From an uncultured Verrucomicrobiota bacterium (GTDB lineage Bacteria; Verrucomicrobiota; Verrucomicrobiia; Chthoniobacterales; JACTMZ01), in contig CAJBKE010000060.1 in assembly GCA_903953565.1 (NCBI GenBank), positions 1 to 42,245 of the forward strand: 42,245 nt of DNA, given 5' to 3'. Position 1 is the stretch's first letter, and each line of letters starts with the position of its first letter. A program made the position numbers and the translations under genes. This document shows, in pieces, positions 1,085-40,730 of this stretch. The notes under the pieces were generated by a model. It saw nothing but the letters and a program-made list of their open reading frames with translations, was not told where the DNA came from and did not search any database.

Positions 1085-4000
1085 TCAGGGCGTGTAACCG
1101 GTCTCCAGCTTGATGAACACTTTGGTGTTGGTGGAGCGATCCAAGGTGAAGACTTTGCGCTCGCAGCCGACCGGAACATTGGCTTGGCTCACGCTCTCGG
1201 CCGCGCCCGTGGTGGCGACAGGATAATCCCAGGCTCCACCCAGCGAGGTGGTGGCGCGCGGAGTGATGGTGAGCTTCGGATCGTCGGTGCGCACCACGGC
1301 TGTCAGCGAGAAGGTCGACGCCGCGAGAGAGACGAAAGGTTGCTGGCTGGTCGCCGTCGAGTTGCTGGCCCCGCCGATGGCATACTTGGACAGCAACTCG
1401 GGTGTCATGGTGGAACTATTCCCGTTCCAAGTGGAGAAGCCCGAGGCCGCCGAAGTGACCGTCAACGCTTTCTCCACGGGGGCTGCCGCATCGTATTGGC
1501 CATCGCCCGCTTGTGTCGCCGTGATCGTCGTGGATCCCGCTGCGATGATCGTGAGCGTCGATCCGCTGACCGTGGCCACCGCGGGGTTCGAACTGGTGAA
1601 TGTGACCGGCAGCGACGAGGTCGCCGTGGCGCTCAGGATGCGCGTTGTGTCCGCGGTGGCAGTTGCCGGGTCGAGGATGAAGGTGATGGATTGCGTCGCC
1701 TTGGCTACCGATTGCACGGTGAGGACCACTTGACCATCGGCACCGGTCCCGCCCCTGCATTGCGAACCGACGGAGGACCCGCGAGCCCCGCCGCCGCCGC
1801 CGCCGGGTGCGCTGCCGGGGAAACCATCGCCGTTTCCGGAGGAATCCTTTCCATTTCCGCCCGCACCGCCCCCGGTCACAGCGGTTGAGCCCAAGTAGGA
1901 TGTTGCGCTGGTGCCCGCGGCGCCTGTTCCGGCGCTTCCTCCACCGCCTCCTCCCGTATTGATCGGGCTCCCTTGCCCGGCGAGACCGCTGCCGCCGGCA
2001 TAAACGACATCTCCCACGCTTCCCGCGGAACTTCCCGCACCTCCGCTCCCGACAATGCCCGACCCGGAGCTTATGACACTCTGCCCTCCCATTCCCCCAT
2101 TGGCCAGACAGTTGGTGGCAGAATCCGAACCGAACCATGTAGCGCCGCCGGGGATAGCCGTCAGGCTGGGTGATAGAGCGCTCACCCCACCCGCCCCGAT
2201 GGTAATGGTGTAGCTCGATCCGGGAGTGACCGGGACCGTGTTTCTCTTGGCATAGGCACCGCCTGCGCCGCCGCCGCCGAAAGCATTGCCGTTAACCGGC
2301 TTTGATCCGCTCCCGCCCGCACCGCCCGCGCCCCAACATTCCACTTGCACTGCGGTGACATTCGCCGGGCAAGTCCAGGTGGTGGAACTGTTGTAGGTGT
2401 AGGAAATATCCGAGGTGGCACCGGCGACGGTGATGGTCAAGTTCGCGTAGCCCGTGCCCGTGGAGCTGGTGGCGGAGATTGTGGCCGTGTATGTGCCGCT
2501 TTGTGTCGGTGTGCCGCTGATCACGCCGCTCAACGCATTGATGCTCAAGCCGGGCGGCAATCCCGTGGCGTCGAAGGAGGTCGGGTTATTGTCCGCCGTG
2601 ACTTGGAAACTGAGCGGTTTCCCATTGATCGCGACCATCTCGGGATTGCTTGTGATCACGGGCGAGGGGGCGAGGGAGAAAGAGGCGTTGAAAGACTTTC
2701 CTTTGGATCCACTGACATTGACGGAGAGTGTGATTGGACTGGTTCCAGTTACGGTTACACCGGGGTCGGACGACAGCGTGCCGAGCGATGTGCGGCCATT
2801 GAGAGTGACCGTGATCGTGCCGTTGTTGCTCTGCGTCGGATCGGACACACCGACGGAAATGCTGTTGTAGGTTTCCTTCACGATGACGGAACATTGCTTG
2901 TTCACGGTGATGAAGTCGGCTGTGCCGCCGGTATCGGGACCGCTGGTTTTCGCCCAGAAATTCGCCGCAACCACACCCAGCACCTTGCTCTTCACCGCTT
3001 GGATGCCGGTGGTCGCGCTGGTTGGTTCCGTATTGGAAAGAATGGAAATATCCGGGTTGGCCGCGTAGGCCTTCACGCTGCTCGCCTTCCGATTCGGAAG
3101 AATGACATAAGCATACTTCGCATTCGTCGGATTCACCCCATGCTTGCTCACGATCTGGAGATAATAATCCGTGTAGATGGCAGGGTCGGAATCCGTCGGG
3201 TTGATCGTCGTCCAAGCGCCTGACCCGGATACGAATTGGGCCTGCAGGTTGGAGGCGCCCTCCGGGAAGTAATACCCGGCCACGCCGTCCAAGGCGCACC
3301 AAGTCGGACTCGTGCTCGTGCTGACCGTCGCGGGATTGGCCCAGGTCGTTGGTGCAGCGAGAGAATACGCAGTGTCCGCAATGTTGAACGTCGTCGCTCC
3401 AGTGGTCTTCAACTTGCGGTTCTCAATGGTGGTATCCACTTGACCGCCGCTGGTGCAGGTGATGCCGGCTCCAAGGCACACAATTTTATCATCCAGCATG
3501 AACCAAGACTTTTTGGCGTAAAGTTGGGTTCCCGCCGGATGCGCCGACATTCCGGCCACCCCGTAGGCTTTGTTGACTTGCGCGCCGCCGGCCCAGTTCT
3601 GGTCCGTGACCGCATCGTCCGGAGTCGCGCTCAGGTCTGCCGTCGTTCCGGGAAGGCGATACCAGTCCACCGTCGCCCAGTAGGTGTCCATATATTGGGT
3701 GTCCGGATTATCCAAATACAGGTAGGTTACCCCCGCTCCCGTGTACCAACCCTTCAGATTGGTCGGCGAGGTGGTATTGATTTCATAACCGCCCACTCGG
3801 GTGGAGGACATGCTGAGACCAAAACTGAATGCATCGCGATGCATGGCCACGCGGTCCATGGAGGCGAAGTGATATTGGCCCGGTGTCACTTGGGGCGAAT
3901 CGGCAAAGGCAAGAAGCTCGGCTGCTATCCCGCTCGGGGCAAAAGTGGCCACGGAGCGCATGGCTCTCAGTGCCGCGGCTCCCTCTTTGGCTTCATCCGA

Positions 4001-7000
4001 GGACGAGGAAGCGATGGCCCGGCCGCGCACCATGTCCATCATGGCACCTTGATACATCAGCGGCATGGTGCCCTCGGTGATCCAGCCATACATGTTCGAG
4101 AGATTGGGGTCGGTGATTTCCCAAGGGGAGCCGTCGAGCAGTTGAACCAGGATGGCAATATTCTCGATCAACTCCTGACCATACGTCCCAGTGTAGGGAA
4201 TATTGTAATGGAAGATGAAGGAACCATCAGCGTACCAACCGTCCCCGCTCGTGACCTGCGCAAACACGCTGTCCCCGGACGAATCCAGTGGATTGTTGCC
4301 GCTTAGATTTCCCTGGGCCTCATCGAGCAAAAGGGTGCCACTGACAACATAATCGGTCTGGGGATTGACAGGATGGCCTGCGGTGTTGTGCCAGAAGCGG
4401 GTGACAGTCGTCGTGTTGGTGCCGAGCAGGATACCTTGCACCGCTGCGACGAGAGCCACGTTGGAAGTGTTCGCGCCGGTCAGGGCGCCCCACCAGAAAT
4501 AGTCTTTGAAGTTAACACTATTGGGTCCGAAATTGTAGACCGCTTTGACGTAGTTCGCGATTTGGGTCGAGCTCAACGCGCCGGGATTGGAGAGGAGCAG
4601 AATCGCCGCGTTGTTCAGCGATTGCGGACCCGCGATCTCCCAATCGTACCAGTTCCCGAAAACCGTGCCCGTTGCGGTGTAAACATTCGATGTCAGCCAA
4701 TCCAAAGCACCCGCAATGGCTGCCAAGAGGGCGGGATCCTGGTACAGCGCGCATCCTTGTATCGCGTAGGCTTGAGCCATGTATTCGAGCCGCTTGAAAG
4801 AATCCGCGATGTTCCCCGAAGCGACGTCCGCGCTCACTACTCCTGTCTGAGCTGTCTGGGCGGCAAGCGGCAGGTCGCTCCAAATGGCAACAAGCGGCAA
4901 TGCGGTCGCACCCGTTCCGCCGCCGCCAGTTATGGTGACGGTGGGAGTGGTGGTGTAACCCGATCCGCCGCTCGTGACTGCGATCGCCGAAACTTTCCCC
5001 GCCGCAACCGTCGCTGTGGCCGTGGCCCCGCTGCCACCGCCTCCGGTGATCTGCACCGTGGGAGCGCTGGTGTAACCCGATCCGCCGCTGATCACTTTGA
5101 TCCCGGTGATGGTGTAGAGCATCGTCGTTTGATAACCGGATGCTCGGGTGTTGATGCTCGCGGTTGTCTTGGAACTGATTACATCCGCAACCAGCGTATC
5201 CCGCCACTTGGTGCGTAGAGTATTGAATTCCTCCGCTGTGGGTGTCGGTGGCGGTGTAGGTGTTGGCGTCGGTGTGGGCGTGGGTGTTGGTGTGGCAACA
5301 GCGGCGAGAATGAGCGCGTTGCCCGAGACGGTCAGTTGGTGGCTGCTCACCGCGGGTTCAAGTGTGGCGGCGCTGGTGACCGACGCGGCTGTGACCAAGG
5401 TATAGTTCGACCCGGCCAGCGGTGATCCGACAATGTTGACCTTGGACCCCGCCTCGAGAGCAAGCGCTGCGCCGGAGATTATCGCGGAGGCGGTTCCGGG
5501 ATTGGTCAGCGCGATTTCGAGGATCGCGTTGGATTTCACCGTGACGGCGGAAGATCCGCTTCCGCCCAGCGCCAGTCTTCCCGCCTCGACGACGGTTGCT
5601 CCGGTGTAGCTGTTGCTGCCGGAGAACGATAGTCTTCCGCCCCCCCGTTTGGTCATGGCATAAGCCGAGCTGGTGGAGGTCTGCTGGATGTTGCAGGGGA
5701 TGTTCAAGGTGCAACCGGTCGCGATCTGCAGGATGCCGCTGTTGCGGAGCTCCAAAACGGCGGGTATGGAGTTGCTCGCGCTCTGCGGGGAAAGGGTCAG
5801 GCTCGAGTTGTTGGTCAAAAAGGCCATTTCGTTTTCCACTCCGGTGACGGTGTTGGTGAAGGGGGAAGTGTCCGTGCCGCCGGTGTTTCCCATCTTGTAA
5901 GTGGTTTCGGAGCCGATATTGGTCCGCACGGAACTGAGCGTGTAATTCAATCCATTGGTAACGTTCCAGGATTTGCCATTGATGTTGCCCGCGCTGGTGG
6001 TGAGATTGGTCGCGCTGGAGGAGAAGACCAGATCGGTGTAAGAACCGCCGCTCGATGATGCGGTTGGCGCGGCCCCCAGACTCCAGCTCGTCGCCGTGTT
6101 CAGACTCGGGTCGTTTCCGGAAAAGATATTGGGCGGCGCGGGAGCGATGGTGATGGTGACATCCAAGGAACCGGTTCCGGCCGAGTTGCCCGCATAGATC
6201 GTCACCAGAAAAACACCGCTCTGGTTGGGCGTTCCGGAAATCGCTCCGGTGGCTGGATTGAAGGACAATCCCGTCGGTAAGGTCCCTTCGCAAACATAGA
6301 TGTCGGGCAACTCCGAAGTGGTGGTGTTGTAGGTGAAAGCGTAGCCGGCCTGCCCGCTGGCGGTGGACGGACTCGTGATGATCGGTGCCGACGGCGCGGG
6401 GACGACCACATCGGTCGGCATGTCCGAAACGACGACGTTGTCGATGAGCCAGTTGCCCGTGTTGGCGGTGCTGGTGTTGAAACAGAGCCGTCCGAGGTTG
6501 TTGTTTCCGATTAAGGTGACGCCGGGGGAGGCAGAGTTGTCGACTGCTGCCAGATTCAACCCATACATGCCGATGAAGCCGCGGTTGAGAAAAACGGCGA
6601 GGCTGTTGGTGTCCAGTGTCCGCACGTTGCCGTCCGGCCCCACGAAGTTGATCGTGTTTGCGTCGTGATCGTTGGCAAAGAGATGGACGGTCTGCTTGTT
6701 GGTGAGGTTGTAGGTAAAGCCATTCGTCGTCGCCCCCTTGACCGACCAGGCAGGTGTGGTCAGCGAGCCAAACTGGTTGAATTCCAAAGCCGCGATTCGT
6801 TTTGAGGCGCTTCCCCCCGCAGTGGTGTTCGCGGTATTCCAAGCGGCCAAGCCGACGATAAGTGGCATATCACCCGAGGCACTGGGCGCGGCGTTATTCA
6901 AAATCTCGAAGCTGGCCGCCAAATAGGACTGCCCTGAAGCACCGGCATTGAATTCCAGCTGTCCCGAGTTCGTCGAAGTATCGTTGAACCAGGCCACTTT

Positions 7001-10000
7001 TCCAGCCGCTCCGCCGATGATGCTGTTCCCCGCCGAGTTGGTCACTTGGCCCGACGCCTTGATCCCGCTGGTCACGCTTGAGGGTGCCACCAGAGGAACG
7101 GGAGCTCCGTTGGTGTAGTTCTCAAAAGTCTCAAACACGTATGGCTCGACCACATTGAGGTTCAAGGTGGCGCTGCCGGTGCCGGCAGAATTCGCGGCGG
7201 TGAGAGTGACGGCGAACAAACCCGAGACGGACGGCGTTCCCGCAATTTTTCCGGTCACAGTGTCGACGGTCAGCCCCGCGGGAAGATTGGACGCGCCGAA
7301 GCTGGTGGCATCGCGCGAAGCGGTGATTTGGTAACGGAACGGCAGGCCCCGCTGCGCCGTCACGGTGGTGGCGCTGGTGATATCGGGCACCACGGCGGTG
7401 ACCGTGAGTATTTGCTGCACCGGGGAGGCGGCCTGGTAATTCGTGTCCCCGGATTGGCTCGCGGTGATCCAAGTCGAACCGGATCCGTTGATGGTGACCG
7501 TGCTGCCGTCAATGACAGCCACGTTGGGGTCGGAGCTTTCATAGCCGACGGGAAGATCGGTCGATGTGTTGCTCTCGGACAGCGAGTAGGCCGAGAGTGC
7601 GACCGGAGGATCTGTCTCCAACGCCGGGTCCAGAGCACCGAAAACGATCGACTGCCTTCTCCTCGGGTCCTGGGTCGCCGTGGTGGAGCCGTAGATTTCA
7701 GACTCGGTGACGTGGATGTAACCGTTGCTGGTGGAATTCCCCCAACAAACCAATCGCACATAGCGGCCCGAAGCGCTGCCGAGGTTCACTGTCTGGAAGC
7801 CGTTGGTGAAGCCGTTGGTCGCGGAATTTGTCCTGGGAAGGATCGTCGTCCAACTGTTGGTGTTGGTCCCGCTATCGATCCGATAAGTGTAGGTGCGGGT
7901 GGAGCCGTTGTACCAATTCAGTTTCAGCGAGGTCAGGTTCTTGTTCTCGCCGAGATCCCACCAGATCCAGGCGCAGTCCTTGCCGAAGTTGGTCCCGTTG
8001 GTGTTCGGGTTCTTCGAGGTCACCGTGGTGCTCCACCGGGTGTTGGTCGCCCCGTCGTAGGAATAGGACGTTTTGGACCCGGAAGACGTGCTGAAGGCTT
8101 TGACACTACTGATCGTCAGTTTTGCACCGCCACTTGAAGCCACCGCGAGGATGTAGGCTTTCTCGGCGTAGTCGGGTCCGATGGCATCACTGTCTGTCAC
8201 GCGCGCCGTGAACGTGTAGTTGCCGATGGTCGTCGGTGTTCCGGAGAGAATGCCCCCGCCGGAAAGCGTCAGACCCGGAGGGAGGCTGCCGCTGCTGATG
8301 CTCCAGACCAGAAGTCCGTCGCCGCCGCTGGCTTGCATGAGTTGGTAGTAGGAGGTTCCCACGCTGCCGCCGGCTATTGCCGCGGTCAAAATAGTCGGCC
8401 TGCTGTCGCCGCTGCCCGCCACGGGGTAGGACGAGGGACCGCCGTCGAAAACCACGCCCACTTCGCTTTTGAGCAGAGGCTTGAGCCCGCTGCCCGCGAT
8501 CCCCGACTCGAAGCAACCGATGTCGATGTTGTTCGTCGGACGGGCGAGAGCGCGGATATCCGTGGTGGCGGCGAGGGTGTCCGTCCCTTTGTTCAAGATC
8601 GGGCTGTTGGTCGCGGGAATCTTGTAGTTGTCGAAGTTGCTGGTGATCAGCGGACTGGCGGTCGTGTAAGTGCTGTTGCTCAGGCCGTTCCATCCGTATT
8701 TGCCCGAGCTGGTTTCGTAAATGTAGTTGGCTCCCGAGCCTCCGAGCACGATGGGCGTGTAGCCCGTCACATTGCTCGTCTCCCGGTTGATCGCGCTGGT
8801 GGTCGCGCTGTTGCCACCCTGCCAGACGTTGTTGAACATCTGCACGTTGGTCGGCGACTTCGCCACGTAGGCGCCGCTGCTGTTGGTGAGGCTGTCGTTG
8901 GAAAGCAGACCCAAGCTCATCTCTTTGCAGTTGATGAACGTGTTGTTGTAAATCTTCGCGTTGTGGGCCGGCTGGTAGGAACCGGTGTTGCCGATGTTGT
9001 TGGCCGGATTGCCAGCGTTGTAATCCGATTCGCCCGACATGACACAAAGAGAGGCGCGGATTCCGTCCCCGACGACGTTGGCGATGTAGTTGTTGCGTAC
9101 GATCTGGTCGGGGCCGATCACGCGTATGCCAGCCTGATTGTCGCTGGCGGTGCCGAGCACGATGTTCGTTCCGTTGGTGTAGTAGCCGCCACCAAAGATG
9201 AAGTTCCCCTCGACCGTGCTACCCGCGCCGCTGCGGAAGCAGATGCCGCCTTGGCTTTCGAGGACGGTGTTGTTGAGGATTTTGTTGCCCTTGGATTTGA
9301 TCGAGATGATCTCCGGTTCGCCCGCGGTCTGCCCGTCCATCCGCCAGATGGAACGGTAGAAGACGTTGCGCTCGATGGTGACCTGCATGTCGAAGGTCTG
9401 GACATCACCTACGCCGATGCGGAGGGATTCGAAGCCGTTGTCCAAATCGCTACTCGTATTCTGGGGAACCGCGTAGCGCGGTCCGAAGTAGCAGTAGCGC
9501 ACCTTGTGCGAACGCGGGACGCTCACCCCGCCTTCCGCGGTGTTGGGCAGGAACGCGACGGTGGCGTTGCGGATCGTGTCGGGCCGCTCGGTGAGGGTGC
9601 AATATTCGATGGTGGCATAAAATCCCTGGATGTAGATCCACTTGCCGTCCGTGTTGCCTGCGGAGCAGCCGTTGAAGCGGAGGTGCGACAGCGTCATGTA
9701 GCGGGAACCCGAAGCGGTGCCCACCAGGTAGGACGAGCCGGCCAAAATTCCACTGTTCGCGTTGAAGTCCAAACCGGCCAAGGTGATGCCGCGCCCCGAA
9801 AGCGTGATCTGGGATGGGGCATTGACGACCACGCCGCCCGGCGTGACGGCGTAGATCAGGATCGGATTGTTTTTCGCCGTCGTGTCATCGGAAATCGAGC
9901 TCTCCAGCGTCTTGTTCATTGCGCCGTAGGTTCCGCTGTTCAACTGCACAACGTCACCCGCGTTCAACCGCGGCAGATTGTTGAAGTCCGCCGCGTTGTT

Positions 10001-10111
10001 GACCGTGTAAGTGGCGCTAATGGCCGGTTGGATGAGCACGGCAAAAGCGAGCGCCGCAAGACAGCGTCGGGCGCGGTTCCAGGATCGGTGGGTTCTAGGG
10101 GAAAAGAACAT
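1085..10111 (-). CDS. Giant secreted bifunctional polysaccharide lyase (PL6 + PL8), 3008 aa
   Basis: The signal peptide (about 1-33) is followed by a PL6 right-handed beta-helix (about 34-540). It has NGFESLRIG, then EPEIISIKS with Lys272 and Arg293; this 21-residue spacing is that of the catalytic Lys/Arg pair in chondroitinase B and PL6 alginate lyases. Linking modules follow: putative Ig (570-655), F5/8-type C discoidin-like (665-810), Ig-like (820-990), LamG-like (990-1233), Ig (1240-1323), a beta-strand repeat region (1327-1603) and a Thr-Pro linker (1607-1629). The PL8 region (1630-2484) has [19 protein letters not shown] (Asn1881), GSFIFHYN (His1968), Tyr1977 and Arg2031. The 9- and 54-residue His-Tyr-Arg spacings match chondroitin AC and hyaluronate lyases. 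An Ig domain, a Gly-rich region (2567-2795), another Ig and a unique tail end it. Expected activity: beta-elimination of uronic-acid polysaccharides, probably dermatan/chondroitin sulfate. Substrate is inferred; family assignments are strong. Confidence 0.9.
4905..5090 (-). repeat. Tandem Gly-rich direct repeat inserted near the start of the PL8 region
   Basis: Two consecutive units of about 31 residues encode [18 protein letters not shown] and [18 protein letters not shown], each followed by GATA-type residues. They lie at about residues 1674-1737 of the giant lyase, interrupting the N-terminal part of the PL8 helical domain. The DNA copies are also similar, so this is a recent tandem duplication. 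Confidence 0.7.
5225..5294 (-). repeat. Hexamer microsatellite encoding a Thr-Pro linker
   Basis: Degenerate repeats of GGTGTN on the plus strand encode alternating Thr-Pro (about residues 1607-1629) between the beta-strand repeat region and the PL8 region. This is a typical flexible linker and a likely slippage site. Confidence 0.75.
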
Positions 10112-10358: not shown

Positions 10359-11207
10359 ATGCCTTACTTCGTCGGCGTTGATTCGGATGGCACGGCCTTC
10401 GATTCGATGGAGATCAAGCACAAGCAGGTCTTCCAGCCGATAGCCATCGAGTTGTGGGGCCTCCAGCCGCTGGAGAAGGAATTCCGTGAGCTGGCGGATT
10501 TCGTCAACCTCTATTCCGTGCACCGCGGCGCGAACCGCTTCCAGGGTCTTGTTATGTCCTTCGAGCGGTTACGGCAAATTTCCGGTCGGCGCGATCGTGT
10601 CTCGAGCCTTCCCGATCCCGCGGCCCTGCGGGATTTTGTTCTCTCCGGCTGTCCGCTTTCGGTCCGTGCATTGGAAGAGTGTGCCGCCGGAAATTCATCG
10701 TCGTTTCTCGCCGAGGTCATTGCTTGGAGTCGCCGCAGCGACGAACTCTACGCGCGCATCACCCGCGAAGAGGGCAACCCGCCCTTTCCACTCGTGCGCG
10801 AATCCCTCGAGCGCGCGGCGCAGGCGGCGGACGTGTGGATCATCTCCTCGTCTTCGCGCGCGGGACTCGAACACGACTGGGGCGGTGCGGATCTTCTCGG
10901 GCCGATCGGCCATATTGCCGGGCAGGAAGAGGGGGACAAAAAAGCGCAGCTCACGCAGGCACTGCGCGTGCCGCGTCCGGCGGACCACGCTTTGATGATC
11001 GGCGACGCGCCGGGCGATTACGAGGCGGCAGCTGCCGCAGGCGCTCTCTTTTTTCCCGTTCTTCCCGGTCGGGAACGACAATCTTGGGAGCAGCTTCACC
11101 GCGAGGGCCTCGACCGTTTTTTTGCCGGAACTTTCGCGGGCGATTACCAAAGCCAGTTGCTCTCCGAGTTCCGCAGCGTTCTGCGCGAAGACGCCGCGTG
11201 GCCTTGA
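10359..11207 (+). CDS. HAD-superfamily hydrolase, 282 aa
   Basis: The start at 10359 (MPYFVGVDSDGTAFDSM) is chosen because it places the HAD motif I at the very N-terminus, with Asp8 and Asp10 as nucleophile and acid/base. A GGAG lies 12 nt upstream. Motif II is the Ser-rich WIISSSSRAGL. Motif III/IV is the MIGDAPGDYEAAAAAGA segment near the C-terminus. The large helical cap between motifs I and II suits a phosphatase or phosphoglucomutase-like HAD acting on a small phosphorylated metabolite; the substrate cannot be read from sequence. It is followed after 25 bp by a GH3 gene on the same strand and probably shares its transcript, which hints at sugar-phosphate metabolism. It diverges from the giant lyase gene. 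Confidence 0.8.
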   Translation: MPYFVGVDSDGTAFDSMEIKHKQVFQPIAIELWGLQPLEKEFRELADFVNLYSVHRGANRFQGLVMSFERLRQISGRRDRVSSLPDPAALRDFVLSGCPLSVRALEECAAGNSSSFLAEVIAWSRRSDELYARITREEGNPPFPLVRESLERAAQAADVWIISSSSRAGLEHDWGGADLLGPIGHIAGQEEGDKKAQLTQALRVPRPADHALMIGDAPGDYEAAAAAGALFFPVLPGRERQSWEQLHREGLDRFFAGTFAGDYQSQLLSEFRSVLREDAAWP

Positions 11208-11232
11208 TCCGGCACGAAGCGAAAACATTTCC

Positions 11233-12969
11233 ATGAAAGACGAAAAAACAATCGAAACCATTCTCGGGCAGATGTCCCTAGAGCAGAAGATCGGCCAGTG
11301 CGTGGTCATCGGCATGTCGGGCACGATCATCACCAACGACCTGCGCGAGGCCATCTTGCGCTACCACTGCGGCGGTTTGCGCCTTTCGCCTTTCACCCGG
11401 ATGTTTCGCTACTTTTCGGACGGGAAAGCCAAGCAGCAGGAACTTGGCGAGGGATTCGTTCCTTCCCTGCAGAAAATCGCCGATGTCGGCCAGCCGCCCT
11501 ACGCCACGCCGCAGCAGTATGCGGCAACGCTCAACGAACTGCGCCGTCTGGCCGCGCAGCGCACGCCGGCCGTTCCGCTGCACATGGTCATCGACCAGGA
11601 AAACGACACGAGCAAGGATTTCTCCCGCGGGGGCGTGGTGCAATTTCCCTCGAACATGGGGTTGGTCGCCGGACGCGATCCGGCCATGGCCCGCGAGGTC
11701 GCGCGCTGCATCGCCGTGCAGATGAAGGCGTCGGGCCTCGACATGATCCATTCGCCGGTGGTCGATGTGAACATCAACCCGGACAATCCGGAGATCGGTC
11801 ACCGCGCGTTCGGCGACGATCCCGAGATCGTGGCCGAATACGCCGTGGCCATGATGCGCGGGTTCCAAGACGCCGGGGTCATTGCCGCGGCCAAGCATTT
11901 TCCGGGGCGCGGCGATTCCGCGACCGACGCACACCATGCTTGTCCCGTTTTGCAGGTGGACGCCGAGCGTTTCGAAAAAATCGAGCTTCTGCCCTACCGC
12001 CGGCTCATTGAGGCCGGTCTCGATTCGGTGATGGTGGCGCATTGCATTTATCCGCACCTCGACCCGGACAACATCGCGACGGTTTCTCGCCGCATCGTCA
12101 CCGGGCTTTTGCGTGAGGAACTCGGGTTCGAAGGATTGATCACCACGGACAGCATGACCATGGGTGCGCTCATCGACCGTTACGGCGTCGGGGAATCTTG
12201 CGCTCGCGCCTTGCAGGCAGGCGTCGATGTCATCCTGATGAAGGCTGAGAACCAGTGGCGCGGCGAAATGTTCCATGTCATCCGGCAGTGGGTGGAGTCG
12301 GAAAAAATCAGCGCGTCCGAATTGGACGACAAGGTGCGCCGCGTCCTGCGTTTGAAGCAGAAATACGGCCTGTTCGATAACATGGGCATGGTCGACGCAG
12401 ACCAAGCCGCCGCTCCTTACAGCGATCCGGTCATCGTGGAAACCTCCCGCCGTGCCGCACGCCGCGCGATCATCGTGGTGAAGGACGCACTTGGTGCGCT
12501 GCCCCTCGACCGGACCAAGAAGGTGCTCCTCATCAGCCAGCAAAATTCGATCAAGTCGCCGAACGACATATACGACCATCCGGCGCTCTTCGCGCAATTG
12601 ATGGAGCAGGGTTGGCCCGCGCTGCAGACCTACGAGACGCGCTTCGGTTCCGACGCGAAGCAGGATGCTGAAGTTCTCGCCTTCGTCGCGGCTAACAAAT
12701 TTGATCTCATTGTCTGCACGAATTACTACGACCGTCAGGAAAAGCCGGGCGGCTACGCCAAGGCCCTGATCGATGCGGGGCATCGCGTGGTCTTGGTCAG
12801 CAACACGCCTTACTGCATCGGCGGCATCGGCGGACTGATCCCCTCGGCCAAGACGATCATTCTCAACATGAACCTCACGCCGGAAGGTTTGCGGACGACC
12901 AAGGCGGTGCTGTTCGGCGAAATCGAAGCCGAAGGACTCTGGCCGCTTTCGAATTACAATCCGTTCTGA
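11233..12969 (+). CDS. Glycoside hydrolase family 3, beta-N-acetylhexosaminidase (NagZ-like), 578 aa
   Basis: The start at 11233 (MKDEKTIETILGQMSLEQKIGQ) opens at the usual GH3 N-terminal helix. The TIM-barrel domain holds the KHFPGRGDSATDAHH loop (Lys221-His222 onward). Asp232 and His234 correspond to the acid/base dyad specific to the NagZ-type hexosaminidase branch. The nucleophile is Asp306 in ITTDSMTMGAL. The C-terminal part (about 400-578) is the GH3 alpha/beta sandwich. No signal peptide is visible, so it is predicted to be cytoplasmic. It would release terminal GlcNAc or GalNAc from imported oligosaccharides, or act in cell-wall recycling. Its partner upstream is a HAD hydrolase 25 bp away. 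The family call is firm; the substrate is open. Confidence 0.9.
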   Translation: MKDEKTIETILGQMSLEQKIGQCVVIGMSGTIITNDLREAILRYHCGGLRLSPFTRMFRYFSDGKAKQQELGEGFVPSLQKIADVGQPPYATPQQYAATLNELRRLAAQRTPAVPLHMVIDQENDTSKDFSRGGVVQFPSNMGLVAGRDPAMAREVARCIAVQMKASGLDMIHSPVVDVNINPDNPEIGHRAFGDDPEIVAEYAVAMMRGFQDAGVIAAAKHFPGRGDSATDAHHACPVLQVDAERFEKIELLPYRRLIEAGLDSVMVAHCIYPHLDPDNIATVSRRIVTGLLREELGFEGLITTDSMTMGALIDRYGVGESCARALQAGVDVILMKAENQWRGEMFHVIRQWVESEKISASELDDKVRRVLRLKQKYGLFDNMGMVDADQAAAPYSDPVIVETSRRAARRAIIVVKDALGALPLDRTKKVLLISQQNSIKSPNDIYDHPALFAQLMEQGWPALQTYETRFGSDAKQDAEVLAFVAANKFDLIVCTNYYDRQEKPGGYAKALIDAGHRVVLVSNTPYCIGGIGGLIPSAKTIILNMNLTPEGLRTTKAVLFGEIEAEGLWPLSNYNPF

Positions 12970-13049: not shown

Positions 13050-13185
13050 CAGACACCAAAAGGTTTCAGACTTTGATCGGAGGGTGGATCGCGATGTCCA
13101 CATCGCGATTTCCAGACTGATTATCGCGCCGGGACGGCGCGATCCACCTTGCCAGACGTCCAGAACTTTTTCGTGATTGGTATTA
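13050..13185 (-). repeat. Dispersed palindromic repeat, copy 1
   Basis: The core at 13083-13148 has ends GGTGGATCGCG and CGCGATCCACC. It contains two hairpins: ATCGCGATGT paired with ACATCGCGAT, and ATCGCGCCG paired with CGGCGCGAT. Flanks of about 35 bp each side (including CCAGACGTCCAGAAC and AGGTTTCAGACTTTGATC) are shared with copy 3 in the opposite orientation. The element fills the convergent gap between the GH3 gene and the esterase gene and contains the esterase stop codon. It may act as a bidirectional terminator. Confidence 0.85.
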
Positions 13186-14130
13186 TTCCAACTCGCCTGC
13201 TTTCGCTGGCGCCGGGGGCAACGGAACAAGTCCGAGCGAAACGAGAAATCTCGCCGCTTCGTCCTGAGTTTTAATCTTCGCCGCCGCGCCCGCCTCGCCG
13301 AATTTGCTCGAGTAGTAGCTGTGACCCAATCCGTCGAAGGTCACCAACTCGCAGCGGTTGCCGTTGGCCTTGAGCTTCTCCATCAGGCCCGCCGAGTTCG
13401 CGTAAGGCACCGTCTCATCTTTCGTGCCGTGGAAAATCAAAACAGGCGGCATCGTGGCCGGCATTTGATCGGGAACCGAGCAGGCCAAGGCGCGCTCGGC
13501 AGAACCGCCGAAACGCTTGGTGCCGCCGTAACCGCCATCCTTGGTGTCGCTCACGGGATTGAGCAAAATCAAAGCGGCGGGCAGGGGATCCGGTGAACCG
13601 TGGTCATCAGCGCCCGGGCCTTTCTTCGTGATCGCGGTCCATGCCGCGATGTGTCCTCCGGCCGAGGTGCCCATGACGGCGATCTTGGCGGGATCGATGC
13701 CCAATTCGGCCGCATGCTCCTGCACCCAGCGCACCGCGGCGCGCGCGTCGGAAATGCAGTCCTCGGGCGTGCCGCCCAGGCGCTTGCGCGTGCGGTAATC
13801 GGGCGCCACTCCGACCATGCCCAGCTTGGCTGCCCACTTCGCCCATCCCACCGACTTCTCCGGCGTGCCACTGGCCCAACCGCCGCCGAAGAACATGACG
13901 AGGCACGGGTTTTTATCCGATGCTTTCCAGCCCGCCGGCTTCACGACGTGGAGGCGTAATTCATTCGTTCCGGCGTGGCGGTAGACGAACGGCTCGCTGC
14001 CCGGCAATTCCAACGGCGTGACCTCAGGCGGGGTCGGGGATGGAGTGGTGGTCGGGGTTGTCACGTTCGTTTGGGCCAACAGCGCGGAGGCTCCGGCCAA
14101 GAGCAAAACAGAACAAATTACCGGCTGCAT
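13183..14130 (-). CDS. Secreted alpha/beta hydrolase (esterase-like), 315 aa
   Basis: The N-terminus MQPVICSVLLLAGASALLAQ is a signal peptide, followed by a Thr/Pro-rich linker. The hydrolase fold shows FFGGGWASG (oxyanion hole of the HGGG type), the nucleophile elbow GTSAGGH, the acid in HGTKDETVPY and the His in FDGLGHSYYS. This layout fits BD-FAE/acetyl-xylan-esterase-like enzymes that remove acetyl or other acyl groups from polysaccharides in the periplasm or outside the cell; the true substrate is unknown. The start at 14130 lies directly against an AATAATTATT motif. An in-frame ATG at 14148 is an alternative, adding MAQIII. The gene is convergent with the GH3 gene and divergent from the beta-helix gene. 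Confidence 0.84.
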   Translation of the reverse strand: MQPVICSVLLLAGASALLAQTNVTTPTTTPSPTPPEVTPLELPGSEPFVYRHAGTNELRLHVVKPAGWKASDKNPCLVMFFGGGWASGTPEKSVGWAKWAAKLGMVGVAPDYRTRKRLGGTPEDCISDARAAVRWVQEHAAELGIDPAKIAVMGTSAGGHIAAWTAITKKGPGADDHGSPDPLPAALILLNPVSDTKDGGYGGTKRFGGSAERALACSVPDQMPATMPPVLIFHGTKDETVPYANSAGLMEKLKANGNRCELVTFDGLGHSYYSSKFGEAGAAAKIKTQDEAARFLVSLGLVPLPPAPAKAGELE

Positions 14131-14140
14131 AATAATTATT
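14131..14140 (-). promoter_or_regulatory. AT-rich motif abutting the esterase start
   Basis: The minus strand reads AATAATTATT immediately before the ATG at 14130. It resembles the ATAAATATT-type motifs elsewhere in the window. If it is a -10 region, either the transcript is leaderless or the upstream ATG at 14148 is not used. Confidence 0.35.
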
Positions 14141-14202
14141 TGTGCCATCGGGGCCTTTGCTGTCAAGTTATCTGGCGCATATTGACCTGCGTCGCCGCAT
14201 CT

Positions 14203-16305
14203 ATGAACAAACTTCCCTCCCTATCTTCCGCGCTTCTGCTTGCGGTGACCTTGTCTTCCCACGCCTTCGCCGAGGCCAAGGAGTCCGCTTACTGGCTGGC
14301 TTTCAAGGAGGCGAAGGACCGTTCGCCCGCGAATATTCTAACCGATTTTTCCTACGCCGGATACGAGCACGGGGAAAAAGCGATCCCGGATGTCTCCGGT
14401 CCCGTTTTCAAGGTGACCGATTACGGCGCGGTGGCCGACGATGAGCTTTGCGATGAGGAGGCCATCCGCAAAACGGTTGCCGCAGCCGAGGCGGCCGGTG
14501 GCGGTGTGGTTTTGTTTCCCGCCGGAAAATTTCTCGTCTGGAGCGACCGCAACAAGGCAGAACCGATCCGCATCGGTAAGTCGGGCATCGTCATCCGCGG
14601 AGCGGGTTCCTCCGCGGGCGGCACGGTTATCCGCTCGATCCATTCCGGCTACCGCACGGGCCCGTATCCTGTCCCGAAAGGAACGAAAGATGCCGAGGGC
14701 AAAGATGACTGGTCCAAGATACCCTACATTTTCATGTTCGAACCTCCGTCGGGGGAGTCGGATGGTCCGTCGTCTGTTGCCGTGACGGGCCCGGTGAAGC
14801 GGGACAGTTTCGAGGTTCCGGTCGAATCCTCCGAGGGCTTCAAGGCGGACCAGTGGATTGTCCTGAAAGGCAAGACCCACAAGTTCGACAACGAATTGCT
14901 TGCCGGGTTGGAACTACATCCCACTTGGAAGCGGCTCATTCAGGACGGCGCGGGCATGAACGAGATCCACCGGATCAAGGAGGTGCGCGACAACGTGCTC
15001 GTCTTGCAGGAACCGGTCCTGATCAATCTGGGCGCTGACTTCGGGGTGAAAGTCTCGGCGGCCACGATGCTCGAGCAGGTTGGAGTGGAAGATCTGGCCC
15101 TGCAGGGTGGATGGCTCGGCGATTTCGTTCACCACCGCTCCGCCCTCGACGACGAGGGGTGGGACGGCATCCAGTTCAAGCGCGTGGCCAACGGGTGGAT
15201 CAGGCGTTGCGCTTTTCTCAATCTCAACACGGGGATCTATCTGCGCAATTCCGCCTGCAGCTCGCTGTTGCAGAACCGTTTCGCCGGAAACATGGGGCAC
15301 TACGACGCGGCTATCCGTTCGGACAGTTCCTTCAATCTCATGGGCCTGACGCAAGAACAAACGGCTCCCCAGCACAGCGCCTCGACGGGCAACCGTTCGG
15401 CCGGAACGGTGGTCTGGCGTTGGCAGATGACTCCGGCCTCGACCATCGACTCGCATGGCAATGGTCCTTACGCCACGCTGATCGACCGGGTGAACGGCGG
15501 CACCATGACACGCAGCGGCGGACCCGCGCCGTCCTTCCCGAACCATCTTCGCTGGATGGTGTTCTGGAATTTCTCCTACGACAGCAACGACGATCAGCCT
15601 GTGAATTTATGGAATTATGTCAAAGGCAAGGAAGCGAAGTTCGTCAAGCCGCTCTTTGTCGGACTCCACGGCAAACCGCTGGAATTGAAAGAAGATGCGC
15701 TTGAAGGCAACGAGTTGCCCGGTGCGCCCGTCCTGCCGGAGTCGCTCTACGAGGCGCAGTTGGAGTTGCGTTTGGGCAAAGCGCCCGAGTGGGTGGGGCA
15801 GACCAAGACGGATTGGGAAAAGTTGCGCACTGAGCCCTTGCCCCCTTTTGCCGTGGCCGACATCGCCAAGGGTGACCTCCACGAGGAAGATTTCGCGCTC
15901 GATGATCTGCTCAAAGATTGGTCGGCCATGATGGCCAACCAGGAGCTCGGATGGGCCGTGCCGCTCGAGCTTTCTCCGGAAGTTCCCGCGGTCCGCTTGC
16001 GCGAAGATTACGTCCTGCTCCGCACCATCGTCCAAGCGATGGCCACTTATGCCAGTCCGCTTCCGGTCAAGGACGAGGAGAAAACCCTGGAAGCAGGGAA
16101 GTCGGTCTACGCCTTGTCCCCCGCACTGAAAGTCGAGGTGACCGCGAGCGACAAAGAGCTGACCATCTCCATGCCGATCCAGTCCGACGCGAAAGCGCAG
16201 CGCAAGAATGCCGGGTCTTTGCGCGTGGCGCAGGAGTTGTCAGCGGCCTGCGGCGCCACGCTCCTCGCCGAGCCGGCTAGCCTCAAACTCACGGTGCTGC
16301 GATAG
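14203..16305 (+). CDS. Secreted right-handed beta-helix protein, DUF4955-type, 700 aa
   Basis: The start at 14203 gives the signal peptide MNKLPSLSSALLLAVTLSSH (cleavage near AFA|EAK). From about residue 65, FKVTDYGAVADD and GGGVVLFPAGKFLVW are the start of a pectate-lyase-3-type beta-helix. The middle (about 300-480) has a His/Asp/Asn-rich region including VHHRSALDDEGWDGIQF, GNMGHYDAAIRSDSSFN and TIDSHGNGPYATLIDRV, as in DUF4955 beta-helix proteins of Bacteroidota. The last third, with no recognised motif, may be an accessory sheet domain. A polysaccharide lyase or hydrolase role in the periplasm is likely. A PL29-like chondroitin lyase is a possibility that fits the neighbourhood but was not tested. 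The gene converges on the DUF2264 operon across an inverted repeat. Confidence 0.78.
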   Translation: MNKLPSLSSALLLAVTLSSHAFAEAKESAYWLAFKEAKDRSPANILTDFSYAGYEHGEKAIPDVSGPVFKVTDYGAVADDELCDEEAIRKTVAAAEAAGGGVVLFPAGKFLVWSDRNKAEPIRIGKSGIVIRGAGSSAGGTVIRSIHSGYRTGPYPVPKGTKDAEGKDDWSKIPYIFMFEPPSGESDGPSSVAVTGPVKRDSFEVPVESSEGFKADQWIVLKGKTHKFDNELLAGLELHPTWKRLIQDGAGMNEIHRIKEVRDNVLVLQEPVLINLGADFGVKVSAATMLEQVGVEDLALQGGWLGDFVHHRSALDDEGWDGIQFKRVANGWIRRCAFLNLNTGIYLRNSACSSLLQNRFAGNMGHYDAAIRSDSSFNLMGLTQEQTAPQHSASTGNRSAGTVVWRWQMTPASTIDSHGNGPYATLIDRVNGGTMTRSGGPAPSFPNHLRWMVFWNFSYDSNDDQPVNLWNYVKGKEAKFVKPLFVGLHGKPLELKEDALEGNELPGAPVLPESLYEAQLELRLGKAPEWVGQTKTDWEKLRTEPLPPFAVADIAKGDLHEEDFALDDLLKDWSAMMANQELGWAVPLELSPEVPAVRLREDYVLLRTIVQAMATYASPLPVKDEEKTLEAGKSVYALSPALKVEVTASDKELTISMPIQSDAKAQRKNAGSLRVAQELSAACGATLLAEPASLKLTVLR

Positions 16306-16463: not shown

Positions 16464-18476
16464 CTACACCGCGCCGGGCAACGCGGGATGGCGGATGATC
16501 CAATTTGCCGCCCCGTTGCTCCGCAAGGTCCACGCGCCCGCTTCACTGGCGATCACTTCCCAATCCGCGAGATTCGCAGATACCGGGCTGATGCCGTGGA
16601 GCGCGGCCAGCCAGCCTTCGCCCTCAATGGTGGCCGTTTGGAAATACGGCGTGAGACTGTTCGCGGCGTAAATGTGCGTGCGCGGACTTTTCCCACGAGC
16701 GGCTTGGCGCAAGGCGGAGTTCTCGAAGCCGTGCACCGCCTGGAGCATCGCGTGATGCGTGCGGTTGCGCCACGAAAGGCGCGGGAATTTTCCCGAGAAG
16801 ACCAACTCGGATTCCTCTTCCGCGGCGAGGCTTTGTCCTCCGAGCAGGAGGCGGCACGGGTTTTGCAGCCGGTATTTGTGGAGCTGCAATTGCCAGGGTC
16901 CGTTCCACCAAAGGTGCGTCTCGATCTCGACACCGCTGCCAAGCGTGTAAGCGCAGGCAAGGTGATTCGCTTCGACCGCGAGCGCGCGAGTCGCCTGGCG
17001 TCCGTGCAAAGTTCCGTCGGCGGATTGCGCGGTGAGGGAGGCGTCGACGGGATAGTCGGTCCCCGGCGCCTGCACTTCGAAGCCTGTGCCGGTGCGGTAA
17101 CCCAGCTTGCCCCATTTGTAAGGACCGAAGATCGTGTTCGCCTCGCAGATCGCCGTGTCCGCGTTGGTCAGTTCGATCTCGCCGCTGATGCCGCGCACGA
17201 TGAGGCCGGTCTGCGTCATGGGATGCGCAAAATCACCTGCCTCGCTCGGCAGCGGTTCTTCCGCCGCCTGCCAGAAATCCGAGGAAGGCGGCAGGAGCAG
17301 GGCAGAGAGGCCTTTCGCGCACCAATAGGGCGAACCGGCGCACGAATAGCGTTCGGACAACTCGGGAAAAACATCGACCCAACCCAAACCGATCGCACCC
17401 TGCGATTGGCGGATGGGACGCGACCCGAAAAACTCAAGGTTCTTCGAGCAGAGGCGGCGGGATAGTCCGGGTGACAAAGTCGAGATGCCCGCCTTCTCGG
17501 CCAGAGCGAACGGCGCCACCGCATTGAAGCGGTAGGTCAGCGACCGGCCGAAGGGAACGTTCTCCCCGCTCGCGGCGAAGAAGCGCGCATGGTCCGGCAA
17601 AAATTGCGCCGTCCAATCGTTCCACCGTTTTTGCCGTGCGGGGTCCGATGCGCCGTGCAGCAGGCCCCACCACAGCGAATAATAGTGAAACGCGTAGGCG
17701 TTGTAGTAATCGACCGTTTCGTTGGTGCCGTCGCGGAACCATCCGCCGCCCAGTGCCATGCCTTCCAGCGCGTCGAGGAAGCCGCGGACAGATTCGTCGT
17801 CGCCCGTTTCGCCGAAGTCTTCGCGCCGCAGGAACTCCAGCGTGAGCACGCCGAAAAAGAGGTGGTTGTTGCGGTGCAGTTTTTTGCCCCGGATGCCGCC
17901 GAGCCATGCGGCGATTTGCGCCTGCTCTTTGCGGTCAAGCGGATCCCACAGCCAACCGCGGGCGATATCCAGGGAGAGGACCAGCGCGGCCATCTCCACG
18001 TTGTGCTGGTGATGATCGCCGGTCGGACCCCAATACTGCGGATCATCCGGATCGGTGCCATGGACCAATCCGCGGCGGAACCATTCGGCGATGTTTTCGC
18101 GCGAAAGGGAATCCGGATTGGCCGTGTTCTTGTCTTCGCACTGCAGCCAGTGCGCGGCCCAGAGGCAGGGGCGGGCGAATGACTCGAGGCGGTCGGCCTG
18201 CGCGCCGTGGTTGCTCGCTTTGCCGAGGAGCGGGAGTTCCGCCTTGCGCGGTTGCATGAGGGCGGCCAGCGGTCGAAGACCTTCTTCCGCGATGCGCAGC
18301 CATGCTTGGTGATCGAGAGAGGGATTCACGGCGGAAGCTTTAGTCTCGGATGTCCAAGCCGTGGATGGCAAACGTCCGGTCGCGGCGGCGGCGGCACCGG
18401 CCATGGCGAAAAGAAAATTGCGGCGGGAAATCGGCGCGGACTCAAGGCGTCCGTCCGTGCTGCCTCCTGCTACCAC
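16464..18476 (-). CDS. Tat-exported DUF2264 family protein, 670 aa
   Basis: The start is GTG at 18476, overlapping the stop of the upstream isomerase gene in GTGGTAG. It is the only nearby start that retains the twin-arginine signal SRRNFLFAMAGAAAAATG. The mature part begins near residue 50 and shows WLRIAEEGLRPLAALMQP, GPTGDHHQHNVEMAAL, HRNNHLFFGVLTLEFL and GWFRDGTNETVDYYNAYAFHYY. These are typical of the (alpha/alpha) barrel of DUF2264; a C-terminal beta-sandwich follows. I recall DUF2264 members being linked to a glucuronidase family (GH154), so an exo-acting uronidase is plausible but unproven here. It is the last gene of a four-gene minus operon and is probably translationally coupled to the isomerase. 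Confidence 0.83.
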   Translation of the reverse strand: MVAGGSTDGRLESAPISRRNFLFAMAGAAAAATGRLPSTAWTSETKASAVNPSLDHQAWLRIAEEGLRPLAALMQPRKAELPLLGKASNHGAQADRLESFARPCLWAAHWLQCEDKNTANPDSLSRENIAEWFRRGLVHGTDPDDPQYWGPTGDHHQHNVEMAALVLSLDIARGWLWDPLDRKEQAQIAAWLGGIRGKKLHRNNHLFFGVLTLEFLRREDFGETGDDESVRGFLDALEGMALGGGWFRDGTNETVDYYNAYAFHYYSLWWGLLHGASDPARQKRWNDWTAQFLPDHARFFAASGENVPFGRSLTYRFNAVAPFALAEKAGISTLSPGLSRRLCSKNLEFFGSRPIRQSQGAIGLGWVDVFPELSERYSCAGSPYWCAKGLSALLLPPSSDFWQAAEEPLPSEAGDFAHPMTQTGLIVRGISGEIELTNADTAICEANTIFGPYKWGKLGYRTGTGFEVQAPGTDYPVDASLTAQSADGTLHGRQATRALAVEANHLACAYTLGSGVEIETHLWWNGPWQLQLHKYRLQNPCRLLLGGQSLAAEEESELVFSGKFPRLSWRNRTHHAMLQAVHGFENSALRQAARGKSPRTHIYAANSLTPYFQTATIEGEGWLAALHGISPVSANLADWEVIASEAGAWTLRSNGAANWIIRHPALPGAV

Positions 18477-28450: not shown

Positions 28451-28572
28451 GTGGTCGGTTCGGACAGGCTCCCGTCCCCGCCGAAGTGCCGCCATTTGCG
28501 CGCGGCCCCATCCTGGTGTAGGACTCAAGAGTTCCTCACATCTGAAAGCCCAAAAAGGAACTTGCCTGAGGC

Positions 28573-28585
28573 AATAAATATTATA
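28573..28585 (+). promoter_or_regulatory. AATAAATATTATA motif upstream of the second beta-strand repeat gene
   Basis: It contains the same ATAAATATT core as the other motifs and ends 18 nt before the ATG at 28604. It indicates that the second paralog is transcribed from its own promoter rather than only by read-through. Confidence 0.5.
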
Positions 28586-28603
28586 TCTTATCTCAAACCT
28601 CCC

Positions 28604-34899: not shown

Positions 34900-35688
34900 A
34901 TGTCACGACCGGTTATTCTCGTCACGGGCGCAAGCCGCGGTTTGGGCCGCGGGGTGGCGCTTTCTTTGGCCAAGGAGGGCTACGATGTGGCCATCCACTA
35001 CGCGAGCAACCGTGCGGCGGCCGATGAGGCCGCGCAACTTTGTCGCGATGCGGCGCTGGACAAGGCGCAGAGATTTTTTCCGGTCTCCGCGCAGCTCGCC
35101 TCGGCTTCCGAGCGCGCGGCCATGATTGACGCGGTGCTCGGCGAATTCGGATGCATCGACGGATTGGTCAACAACGCGGGGATTGCCCCGAAGGTGCGCG
35201 CCGATATCACCGAGGCGACCGAGGAAAGCTTCGACGAAGTTATTGCGGTCAATTTGCGCGGCCCGTATTTCCTCAGCCAGCTTGTCGCCAATTGGTGGCT
35301 GGCTCATCCCGGCAAATCGCGGTTGCCCGGCGGATACAAACTCGTCTTCGTCACCTCGATGTCTGTCCACACCGCCTCGGTCAACCGCGGCGAGTATTGC
35401 ATCGCCAAGGCCGGACTCTCCATGGCCTCGCAGCTCTGGTCTGTGCGTTTGGCGGGCGAGGGCGTGCAGGTTTTCGAAGTGCGGCCCGGTATCATGAAGA
35501 CGGACATGACGGCCAAGGTGACCGACAAATACGACAAACTCATCGCCGAAGGTCTCGTCCCGCAGCTTCGCTGGGGTACGCCGGAAGATTTGGGCTTGTC
35601 CGTGGCCGCGCTCTGCCGGGGGGATCTCCCTTTCAGTACCGGGGCCGTGATCGACGTCGACGGCGGGTTCCAGTTGCGGCGTCTCTGA
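34900..35688 (+). CDS. Short-chain dehydrogenase/reductase, 262 aa
   Basis: This is a classical SDR: cofactor motif TGASRGLGRG at the N-terminus, NNAG near residue 90, a catalytic Ser in VTSMS, and the YCIAK catalytic Tyr/Lys pair. The end GAVIDVDGGFQ is also typical. Basic residues after the second strand are few, so the NAD/NADP preference is unclear. Databases usually label such proteins 3-ketoacyl-ACP reductase, but being first in an operon with GH88 and KDPG aldolase points to oxidation or reduction of an uronate-derived sugar, in the manner of KduD; that is inference. It ends 11 bp before the GH88 gene. Confidence 0.86.
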   Translation: MSRPVILVTGASRGLGRGVALSLAKEGYDVAIHYASNRAAADEAAQLCRDAALDKAQRFFPVSAQLASASERAAMIDAVLGEFGCIDGLVNNAGIAPKVRADITEATEESFDEVIAVNLRGPYFLSQLVANWWLAHPGKSRLPGGYKLVFVTSMSVHTASVNRGEYCIAKAGLSMASQLWSVRLAGEGVQVFEVRPGIMKTDMTAKVTDKYDKLIAEGLVPQLRWGTPEDLGLSVAALCRGDLPFSTGAVIDVDGGFQLRRL

Positions 35689-39890: not shown

Positions 39891-40730
39891 TCAATCCCTG
39901 CGGTCCGATGGTGGGTGTCCGTGGAATTTAGCGTAGGCGCGGGTAAAGTCACCCGGATGCCGGTAGCCGAGCGTGAGGGCGGTTTCTTTCACCGTGGTGC
40001 CCGGTCGGGAGAGCAGGCGCGAGGCTTCGCGCAGCTTCATTTCGAGCAGGGCCCGGCCGGGCGCGCGACCAGTCGCCTGGCGGAAGAGACGCTGCAGGCC
40101 CATGGCGGAAACGCCGAGGTAATCGGCCAGTGCGGCCGCCGGCGCACGCACGTCGAGGTGCCTGCGCATCCATTGCTCGGCCAATTGCAACCGGTGGGCA
40201 TCGCGCGTGCCGGTCTCCGCCGGGCCGCGGGCGCTGCGGGCCAGATTGGTGTCGATGAGTTTTTTTAAGGCGGCGACAACCTCCGGCGAGAAAGAATCGG
40301 GCCGCTGGATCTCGCGCCGGGTCAGGCGATGCAACTGCTCCAGTTCAGCGGTTGTTTCGGCGTCGGCCGTGCGCAGCCAGCACGTCTTTTTGTCCAGCTT
40401 TGCGCCGATTTCCGGAGGTTGGCTCCAGAACCAGACAAGGAGGGAGCACGGGGCATTCGGACGGTCGCTCCATCCGTAGGGGACATCGGGCCCGGCGACG
40501 ATGAGCGATCCTCGCGATGTCCTCTGGCGCTTGTCTCCCGCCAGTAGGTGGGGGTGACCCGAAAGCACGACCATGTAGGTCCACCCGTGGTGAACGCGAA
40601 GCGGAATGGGGTAGCGGCCGTAAAACCGGCGGCCCCATGCGAGGTAAAGCAAACCGCCCGGAGGTGGCCCGGGAGGAATCCAGTGCGGGGACCCGGGTTC
40701 GGGCAGGTAGATTTCGCGGGCCGCTTTCAC
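39891..40730 (-). CDS. AraC-family transcriptional regulator, 279 aa
   Basis: The start GTG at 40730 lies 8 nt after a TATAAATT box; no nearby ATG preserves the N-terminal region. The N-terminal sensor domain has LRVHHGWTYMVVLSGHPHLL and IVAGPDVPYGWSDRP (AraC-type cupin). The C-terminal AraC domain has HLDVRAPAAALADYLGVSAM with LQRLFRQATG, then TVKETALTLGYRHPGDFTRAYAK. It diverges from the 2-hydroxyacid dehydrogenase/gnd genes (126-bp gap) and converges on the aldolase gene. A role in controlling one or both flanking carbohydrate units is likely. Confidence 0.88.
   Translation of the reverse strand: MKAAREIYLPEPGSPHWIPPGPPPGGLLYLAWGRRFYGRYPIPLRVHHGWTYMVVLSGHPHLLAGDKRQRTSRGSLIVAGPDVPYGWSDRPNAPCSLLVWFWSQPPEIGAKLDKKTCWLRTADAETTAELEQLHRLTRREIQRPDSFSPEVVAALKKLIDTNLARSARGPAETGTRDAHRLQLAEQWMRRHLDVRAPAAALADYLGVSAMGLQRLFRQATGRAPGRALLEMKLREASRLLSRPGTTVKETALTLGYRHPGDFTRAYAKFHGHPPSDRRD

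Follow-up and report, generated by a model that had tools for sequence, protein, structure and literature searches.

The window, the whole stretch of DNA analysed here (42,245 nucleotides), is the entire contig C60 of the Verrucomicrobiota draft genome G000 (2.86 Mb, 70 contigs). On its minus strand, from position 10111 to 1085, lies a reading frame of 3008 amino acids with an ATG start and zero internal stops, which encodes a polysaccharide lyase domain of family PL6 and one of family PL8. The original prediction of both domains in a single 3008-residue protein was borne out: Pfam, alignments and structure models agree, and the coordinates are exact, with the gene on the minus strand. Both families are already known; their pairing is a new combination. 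The gene contains the following features.

1085..10111, minus strand: whole fusion gene, 3008 aa (ORF and Pfam; independent fusions in L006/G500, L138/G627 and L139/G510)
10013..10111, minus strand: putative Sec signal peptide, residues 1-33 (by eye from the translation)
8492..10012, minus strand: PL6 beta-helix lyase domain, residues 34-540 (Pfam, alignment, predicted structure)
7703..8104, minus strand: F5/8 type C (discoidin-like) carbohydrate-binding domain, residues 670-803 (Pfam, 39.5 bits)
6134..7159, minus strand: residues 985-1326, a domain with homology to the N-terminal part of unfused PL8 proteins in genomes G192 and G138 (50% identity)
5567..5653, minus strand: PATR repeat, residues 1487-1515, in a linker ahead of a Thr-Pro-rich stretch (Pfam)
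2645..5233, minus strand: PL8 lyase, residues 1627-2489 (Pfam, alignment, predicted structure)
4898..5107, minus strand: GGSGYT-type beta module, residues ~1669-1738, within the PL8 helical domain (model; orthologues)
2423..2662, minus strand: putative Ig domain (He_PIG), residues 2484-2563 (Pfam)
1718..2389, minus strand: Gly_rich_2 domain, residues 2575-2798 (Pfam)

The Sec-like N-terminus suggests that the protein is exported. PDB matches of the discoidin-like domain are AlyQ and glucanase/chitosanase entries. According to Pfam the protein has four He_PIG Ig-like domains. The beta module within the PL8 helical domain is also found in the orthologues that align across the full query. This module of about 70 residues (GGSGYTxxPTV; 4898-5107, minus strand, in the window) occurs in the fusion protein of locus L006 within the PL6 domain, just ahead of the catalytic motif, and several copies form a tandem array in another frame of this genome, 2331 aa long (G000:C59:80815-82407). 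It seems to be a mobile domain that can be accommodated within enzymes.

Gene neighbourhood

The other genes of the window considered here are listed below, with identities to related loci where available.

11122..12969, plus strand: GH3 glycoside hydrolase, sharing 76% identity with its GH3 counterpart in the G192 PL8/PL6/sulfatase locus
13183..14166, minus strand: alpha/beta hydrolase (possible carbohydrate esterase), 67-71% to the G192, G138 and G311 loci
13975..16305, plus strand: DUF4955 pectate-lyase-like protein, 54-55% to the G192, G138 and G311 loci
34900..35688, plus strand: SDR oxidoreductase, opening a putative cluster for uronate catabolism, 69% to L006
35700..37076, plus strand: distant GH88-like protein (sub-threshold in Pfam), 75% to L006
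37940..39106, plus strand: GFO/IDH/MocA oxidoreductase, 84% to L006
39119..39781, plus strand: KDPG/KHG aldolase, Eda (TIGR01182, 213.6 bits, cut-off 156)
39891..40730, minus strand: AraC-type regulator

KDPG/KHG aldolase is the endpoint of unsaturated uronate catabolism. The cluster of SDR, GH88-like, GFO and KDPG aldolase genes is common to the window, L006 and L137 (43-84% identity), and L139 has its first part. L137 has all of these genes and, in addition, those for a PfkB kinase and an MFS transporter, and PL8 alone adjoins the cluster there. In the window 25 kb separate the cluster from the fusion gene; in L006 and L139 the two are adjacent. An AraC gene, identified by domain scan, adjoins the fusion in L006; a putative AraC-type gene stands beside the cluster in L137, and in L139 an ORF of similar size is found next to the fusion. 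No GH88 protein above the cut-off was found in the window's own genome. Also inside the cluster is a GxxExxY-domain protein (TIGR04256; 37006-37953, plus strand), with homologues in L006, L137 and L139.

In G138, G192 and G311 sulfatase genes follow downstream of PL6, and in G627 one is found about 1.6 kb beyond the frame in which PL8 continues. Several of the sulfatases accompanying the unfused loci and one fused locus contain an SGSH_C domain. No sulfatase was matched on the window contig; the nine to ten sulfatase matches of this genome are on other contigs. One small contig (G000:C39, L122) holds a second PL6, which belongs to another clade, beside two sulfatases; this PL6 is related to one of the G192 locus. 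The window and related loci also carry GH2, GH3, PL4-like, DUF4955 and esterase genes.

Two further groups of genes were noted in the window. Two giant PATR-repeat ORFs abut on the plus strand (23852-28450, 1532 aa; 28451-31795, 1114 aa); they may encode paralogous surface proteins or be the parts of a single split gene. A DUF2264 protein stands beside a xylose-isomerase-like TIM barrel and a 2-hydroxyacid dehydrogenase (16464-20408, minus strand), an apparent second sugar-acid operon.

The PL6 half

Sequence and model together place residues 34-540 firmly in family PL6. Chondroitinas_B (PF14592) matches residues 46-440 with 95 bits (Pfam cut-off 24), and all 16 top fold matches of the AlphaFold model (pLDDT 82, pTM 0.88) are PL6 structures (Z 30.8-39.8 over 384-409 residues), in agreement with the right-handed beta-helix of the family. 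The catalytic pair Lys272 and Arg293 was located exactly where it had been predicted; both residues, together with N225 and E267, are invariant in 30/30 aligned PL6 domains. By analogy with the family, N225, E265 and E267 would serve as calcium ligands. In the alignment the catalytic R293 is followed by Ser294, where many PL6 proteins have His. PL6 chemistry requires an L-uronate at subsite +1 (PMC4954714).

With the PL6 alginate lyases AlyGC (5gkd), 8bwk and Pedsa0632 (7o84) this half shares a fold of about 400 residues (Z 39) and the Ca/Lys/Arg set, but it is only 23-26% identical to them, belongs to a separate clade, has Ser294 and is fused to PL8. Chondroitinase B (1dbg, 1ofm, 7o78) shares the fold and the catalytic Lys/Arg at a spacing of 21 residues and is the weaker match. 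The model reaches Z 34-40 with alginate lyases (best 39.8) against 31.3 with chondroitinase B, and the sequence scores 75 bits against 29 bits. An ordinary Verrucomicrobiota PL6 reaches 344 bits to AlyGC, so the clade of the PL6 half is remote from characterised enzymes. In a tree without PDB sequences this half falls outside the clade of alginate-lyase-like Verrucomicrobiota PL6s (support 100/100), to which it is only about 25% identical.

The PL8 half

PL8 enzymes act beside D-uronates. Membership of residues 1627-2489 in this family is firm, again from sequence and model: Lyase_8_N (1947-2065), Lyase_8 (2081-2340; 224 bits, cut-off 27) and Lyase_8_C (2367-2430) are all above their cut-offs, in agreement with the family's alpha toroid, super-sandwich and C-terminal sandwich, and HMM search and structure prediction, the checks suggested at the outset, thus place the two halves in PL6 and PL8. 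All four catalytic residues predicted for PL8 (Asn1881, His1968, Tyr1977 and Arg2031) are in place and are conserved in 43-44 of 44 aligned PL8 domains. A second Arg at the position matching 2035, which we take to be a substrate contact (Arg292 of chondroitinase AC, Arg313 of xanthan lyase), occurs in 21 of the 44 aligned PL8s; all seven aligned orthologues have Ser. The residues that presumably bind pyruvylated mannose in the Bacillus xanthan lyase, Arg313, Tyr315 and Arg612, align to Ser2035, Ser2037 and about a Thr, and this set is absent.

The AlphaFold model of the PL8 half (pLDDT 79) matches xanthan lyase (1x1h) with Z 46.4, Streptomyces chondroitin AC lyase with 45.5, hyaluronate lyases with 38-44 and the mannuronate lyase 7r2x of Paradendryphiella salina with 39.7 (18% identity). 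By sequence, xanthan lyase scores highest (400 bits), ahead of the best chondroitin AC lyase (250) and hyaluronate lyases (208), and the NCBIfam equivalogs are far under their cut-offs (HylB 345 bits against 1350, chondroitinase-AC 140 against 1000). The xanthan lyases of Bacillus sp. GL1 (1j0m) and Paenibacillus (6f2p) are thus nearest in sequence and fold and share the Asn/His/Tyr/Arg set, but the PL8 half has the inserted beta module and is without the residues presumed to bind pyruvylated mannose. The chondroitin AC and hyaluronate lyases (2wda, 1cb8, 1egu) also share fold and catalytic set, but identity is lower (23-32%) and Ser replaces the second Arg. PL8 enzymes can be broad, as seen in the promiscuous Aly16-1 with mannuronate lyase activity (PMC11596371).

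Judged by their sequences, the PL6 half and the PL8 half each belong to a clade without characterised members. Because the neighbourhoods of the catalytic arginines (R293-Ser; R2031...Ser2035) are unlike those of characterised enzymes, one half may be inactive or of unusual chemistry.

Occurrence of the fusion

PL6 and PL8 share one reading frame in three other metagenome-assembled genomes from two other families. L006 (contig CANIEM010000007.1, which by coordinates is G500:C7) has one ORF of 2594 aa, with PL6 30-33% and PL8 75-78% identical to the window's domains. L138 (G627, a different family of the same order) has both in a single frame (PL6 58%, PL8 68%) that ends at the contig edge, the G627 fusion gene being spread over two contigs. 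Another single frame is found in L139 (G510). These three came from a class-level ortholog search and genome contigs; fusion searches were made within Verrucomicrobiota. Among 388 evenly drawn Verrucomicrobiota genomes no such frame was found besides the window's own. Two short contigs (L004, L005) have a stretch like the PL6 tail ahead of PL8. No hidden PL6 was detected at threshold in the long-frame PL8 proteins L070 (G192) and L074 (G138), and plasmid records gave only distant PL8 matches of less than 60% identity. The PL6-PL8 fusion is present in several Verrucomicrobiota, mainly known from environmental genomes.

A merging of two genes by the assembly would account for such a frame in a draft genome of 70 contigs, and contigs of relatives in the same genus break within the fusion gene. 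In G005 residues 14-1598 are matched at 91% identity until the contig ends, and in G001 residue 1819 onward at 90%, again bounded by a contig end. Between them these contigs nevertheless cover each half, the ORF is free of exact repeats 24 bases long or longer, and both domains stand in single frames of L006, L138 and L139. An assembly join was rejected, as it would need one error common to four independent assemblies; the merging of genes that had been named as a refutation of the fusion is excluded by the independent genomes, and we regard an artefact as having next to no chance.

Origin of the fusion

In G192 (a one-contig genome) and G138 the PL8 and PL6 are separate genes on the same strand, a few kb apart, with a CBM96 gene between them. 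This unfused PL8 is 75-78% identical to that of the window, and the PL6 is a relative of the window's from the same clade. G311 holds the PL6, DUF4955 and sulfatase portion of the locus. Residues 985-1326 of the fusion protein share 50% identity with the beginning of the unfused PL8 protein in its mature form, which puts the point of joining near residue 984. In the G627 fusion a similar stretch directly follows PL6, as judged by eye. In G550 (L137 5685-11009, minus strand) a PL8 orthologue adjoins the uronate cluster without a PL6 half, which G550 possibly lost; the pairing is therefore not obligatory.

In the PL6 tree the fused L006/G510 proteins group with unfused sequences, apart from the fused proteins of the window, G005 and G627. 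Forcing all fused PL6s into one clade was rejected (AU test, p 0.0007; p 3.5e-6 with more members), the groups being set by architecture and the first test run after the first tree was seen. The fusions resemble each other closely in their PL8 halves, and a grouping of L006 with unfused PL8s was not rejected (p 0.17). As the fused PL6s do not form one clade, either the pairing arose twice or a single fusion was followed by replacement of the PL6 half. That the PL6-PL8 pairing seems to have come about more than once suggests a common target for both enzymes, an acidic and probably sulfated polysaccharide.

Proposed function and substrate

On present sequence and model evidence we somewhat favour a fused pair of lyases acting on one polymer, PL6 beside L-uronate and PL8 beside D-uronate. 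A PL6 protein would have been joined onto the N-terminus of a PL8 protein, giving a secreted dual polysaccharide lyase. The PL6 half would perform beta-elimination beside L-uronate with Ca2+, Lys272 and Arg293, and the PL8 half beside D-uronate with Asn1881, His1968, Tyr1977 and Arg2031. One molecule could then cut chains in which D-uronate and L-uronate, plausibly its C5 epimer, alternate or form blocks. The discoidin-like and Ig-type domains may anchor the lyases on the polymer or control the distance between them, and sulfate may be removed by the sulfatases of related loci. Unsaturated products would pass through the GH88-like, SDR and GFO proteins and the KDPG aldolase of the same window to pyruvate. 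The activity of each half, the common substrate and its sulfation are deduced, and the sulfatases, GH88-like protein and KDPG aldolase of the window or related loci indicate a uronate-rich, probably sulfated polysaccharide. Points against this reading are the lack of a sulfatase match on the window contig and of a GH88 above the cut-off in the genome, the G550 PL8 that stands without PL6, and the 25 kb between fusion gene and uronate cluster in the window.

The original prediction had named mixed dermatan/chondroitin chains as a possible substrate, with PL6 as chondroitinase B cutting at iduronate and PL8 as chondroitin AC or hyaluronate lyase cutting at glucuronate. These enzymes do belong to PL6 and PL8, sulfatases, several with SGSH_C, stand at the unfused and one fused locus, and the PL8 fold score to Streptomyces chondroitin AC lyase nearly equals that to xanthan lyase. 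The claim found no specific support, since the PL6 half is nearer to alginate lyases in bits and Z and the PL8 half nearer to xanthan lyase (400 against 250 bits), the HylB and chondroitinase-AC scores stay far under their cut-offs and Ser2035 replaces the presumed substrate-binding Arg292 in all seven orthologues; we consider dermatan/chondroitin sulfate an unlikely substrate. The sulfatases leave a sulfated glycosaminoglycan possible, and equally any other sulfated uronate polymer.

Alginate, cut by PL6 beside guluronate and by PL8 beside mannuronate, would suit the pair in that the two residues are C5 epimers, the PL6 half is nearest to alginate lyases and PL8 mannuronate lyases exist (7r2x and Aly16-1; PMC11596371). 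It is nonetheless improbable in view of the separate PL6 clade and the low similarity of the PL8 half to 7r2x, and alginate would need no sulfatases. The halves might also attack different polymers of one composite matrix, such as algal or cyanobacterial mucilage; the fusion would then serve co-targeting, for which multimodular cellulose/alginate enzymes are a parallel. Such enzymes, with modules directed at two polymers of the same wall, have been reported (PMC13235733), and the GH2, GH3, PL4-like, DUF4955 and esterase genes of the loci speak for a complex matrix. As uronate lyases, though, the two halves would feed their products into a single catabolic route, and the pair recurs both as neighbours and as fusions, which makes separate polymers an improbable reading. 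A single polymer with both kinds of uronate appears the safest deduction, into which dermatan/chondroitin, alginate and other sulfated uronans would all fit. Tentatively, and with rather less confidence, the pair may have been fused at least twice in Verrucomicrobiota and be dedicated to a sulfated D-/L-uronate polysaccharide without a described degrading system.

Significance

The search of the open literature, mostly by title and abstract, found no described PL6-PL8 fusion, in line with the original prediction. Aly35 (Vibrio sp. H204) and AlyC8 (Vibrio sp. C42) likewise carry two lyase catalytic domains per chain, but they are reported to be alginate lyases, Aly35 being assigned to PL7, with both domains for alginate and not PL6 plus PL8. 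Specificity is broad and hard to predict within both PL6 and PL8, and the fusion with its conserved neighbourhood is strong genetic evidence for two lyase families serving one substrate. It offers a ready-made two-activity enzyme for the analysis of mixed-uronate chains, and a short list of genes with a testable prediction for naming the acidic polysaccharide eaten by these bacteria.
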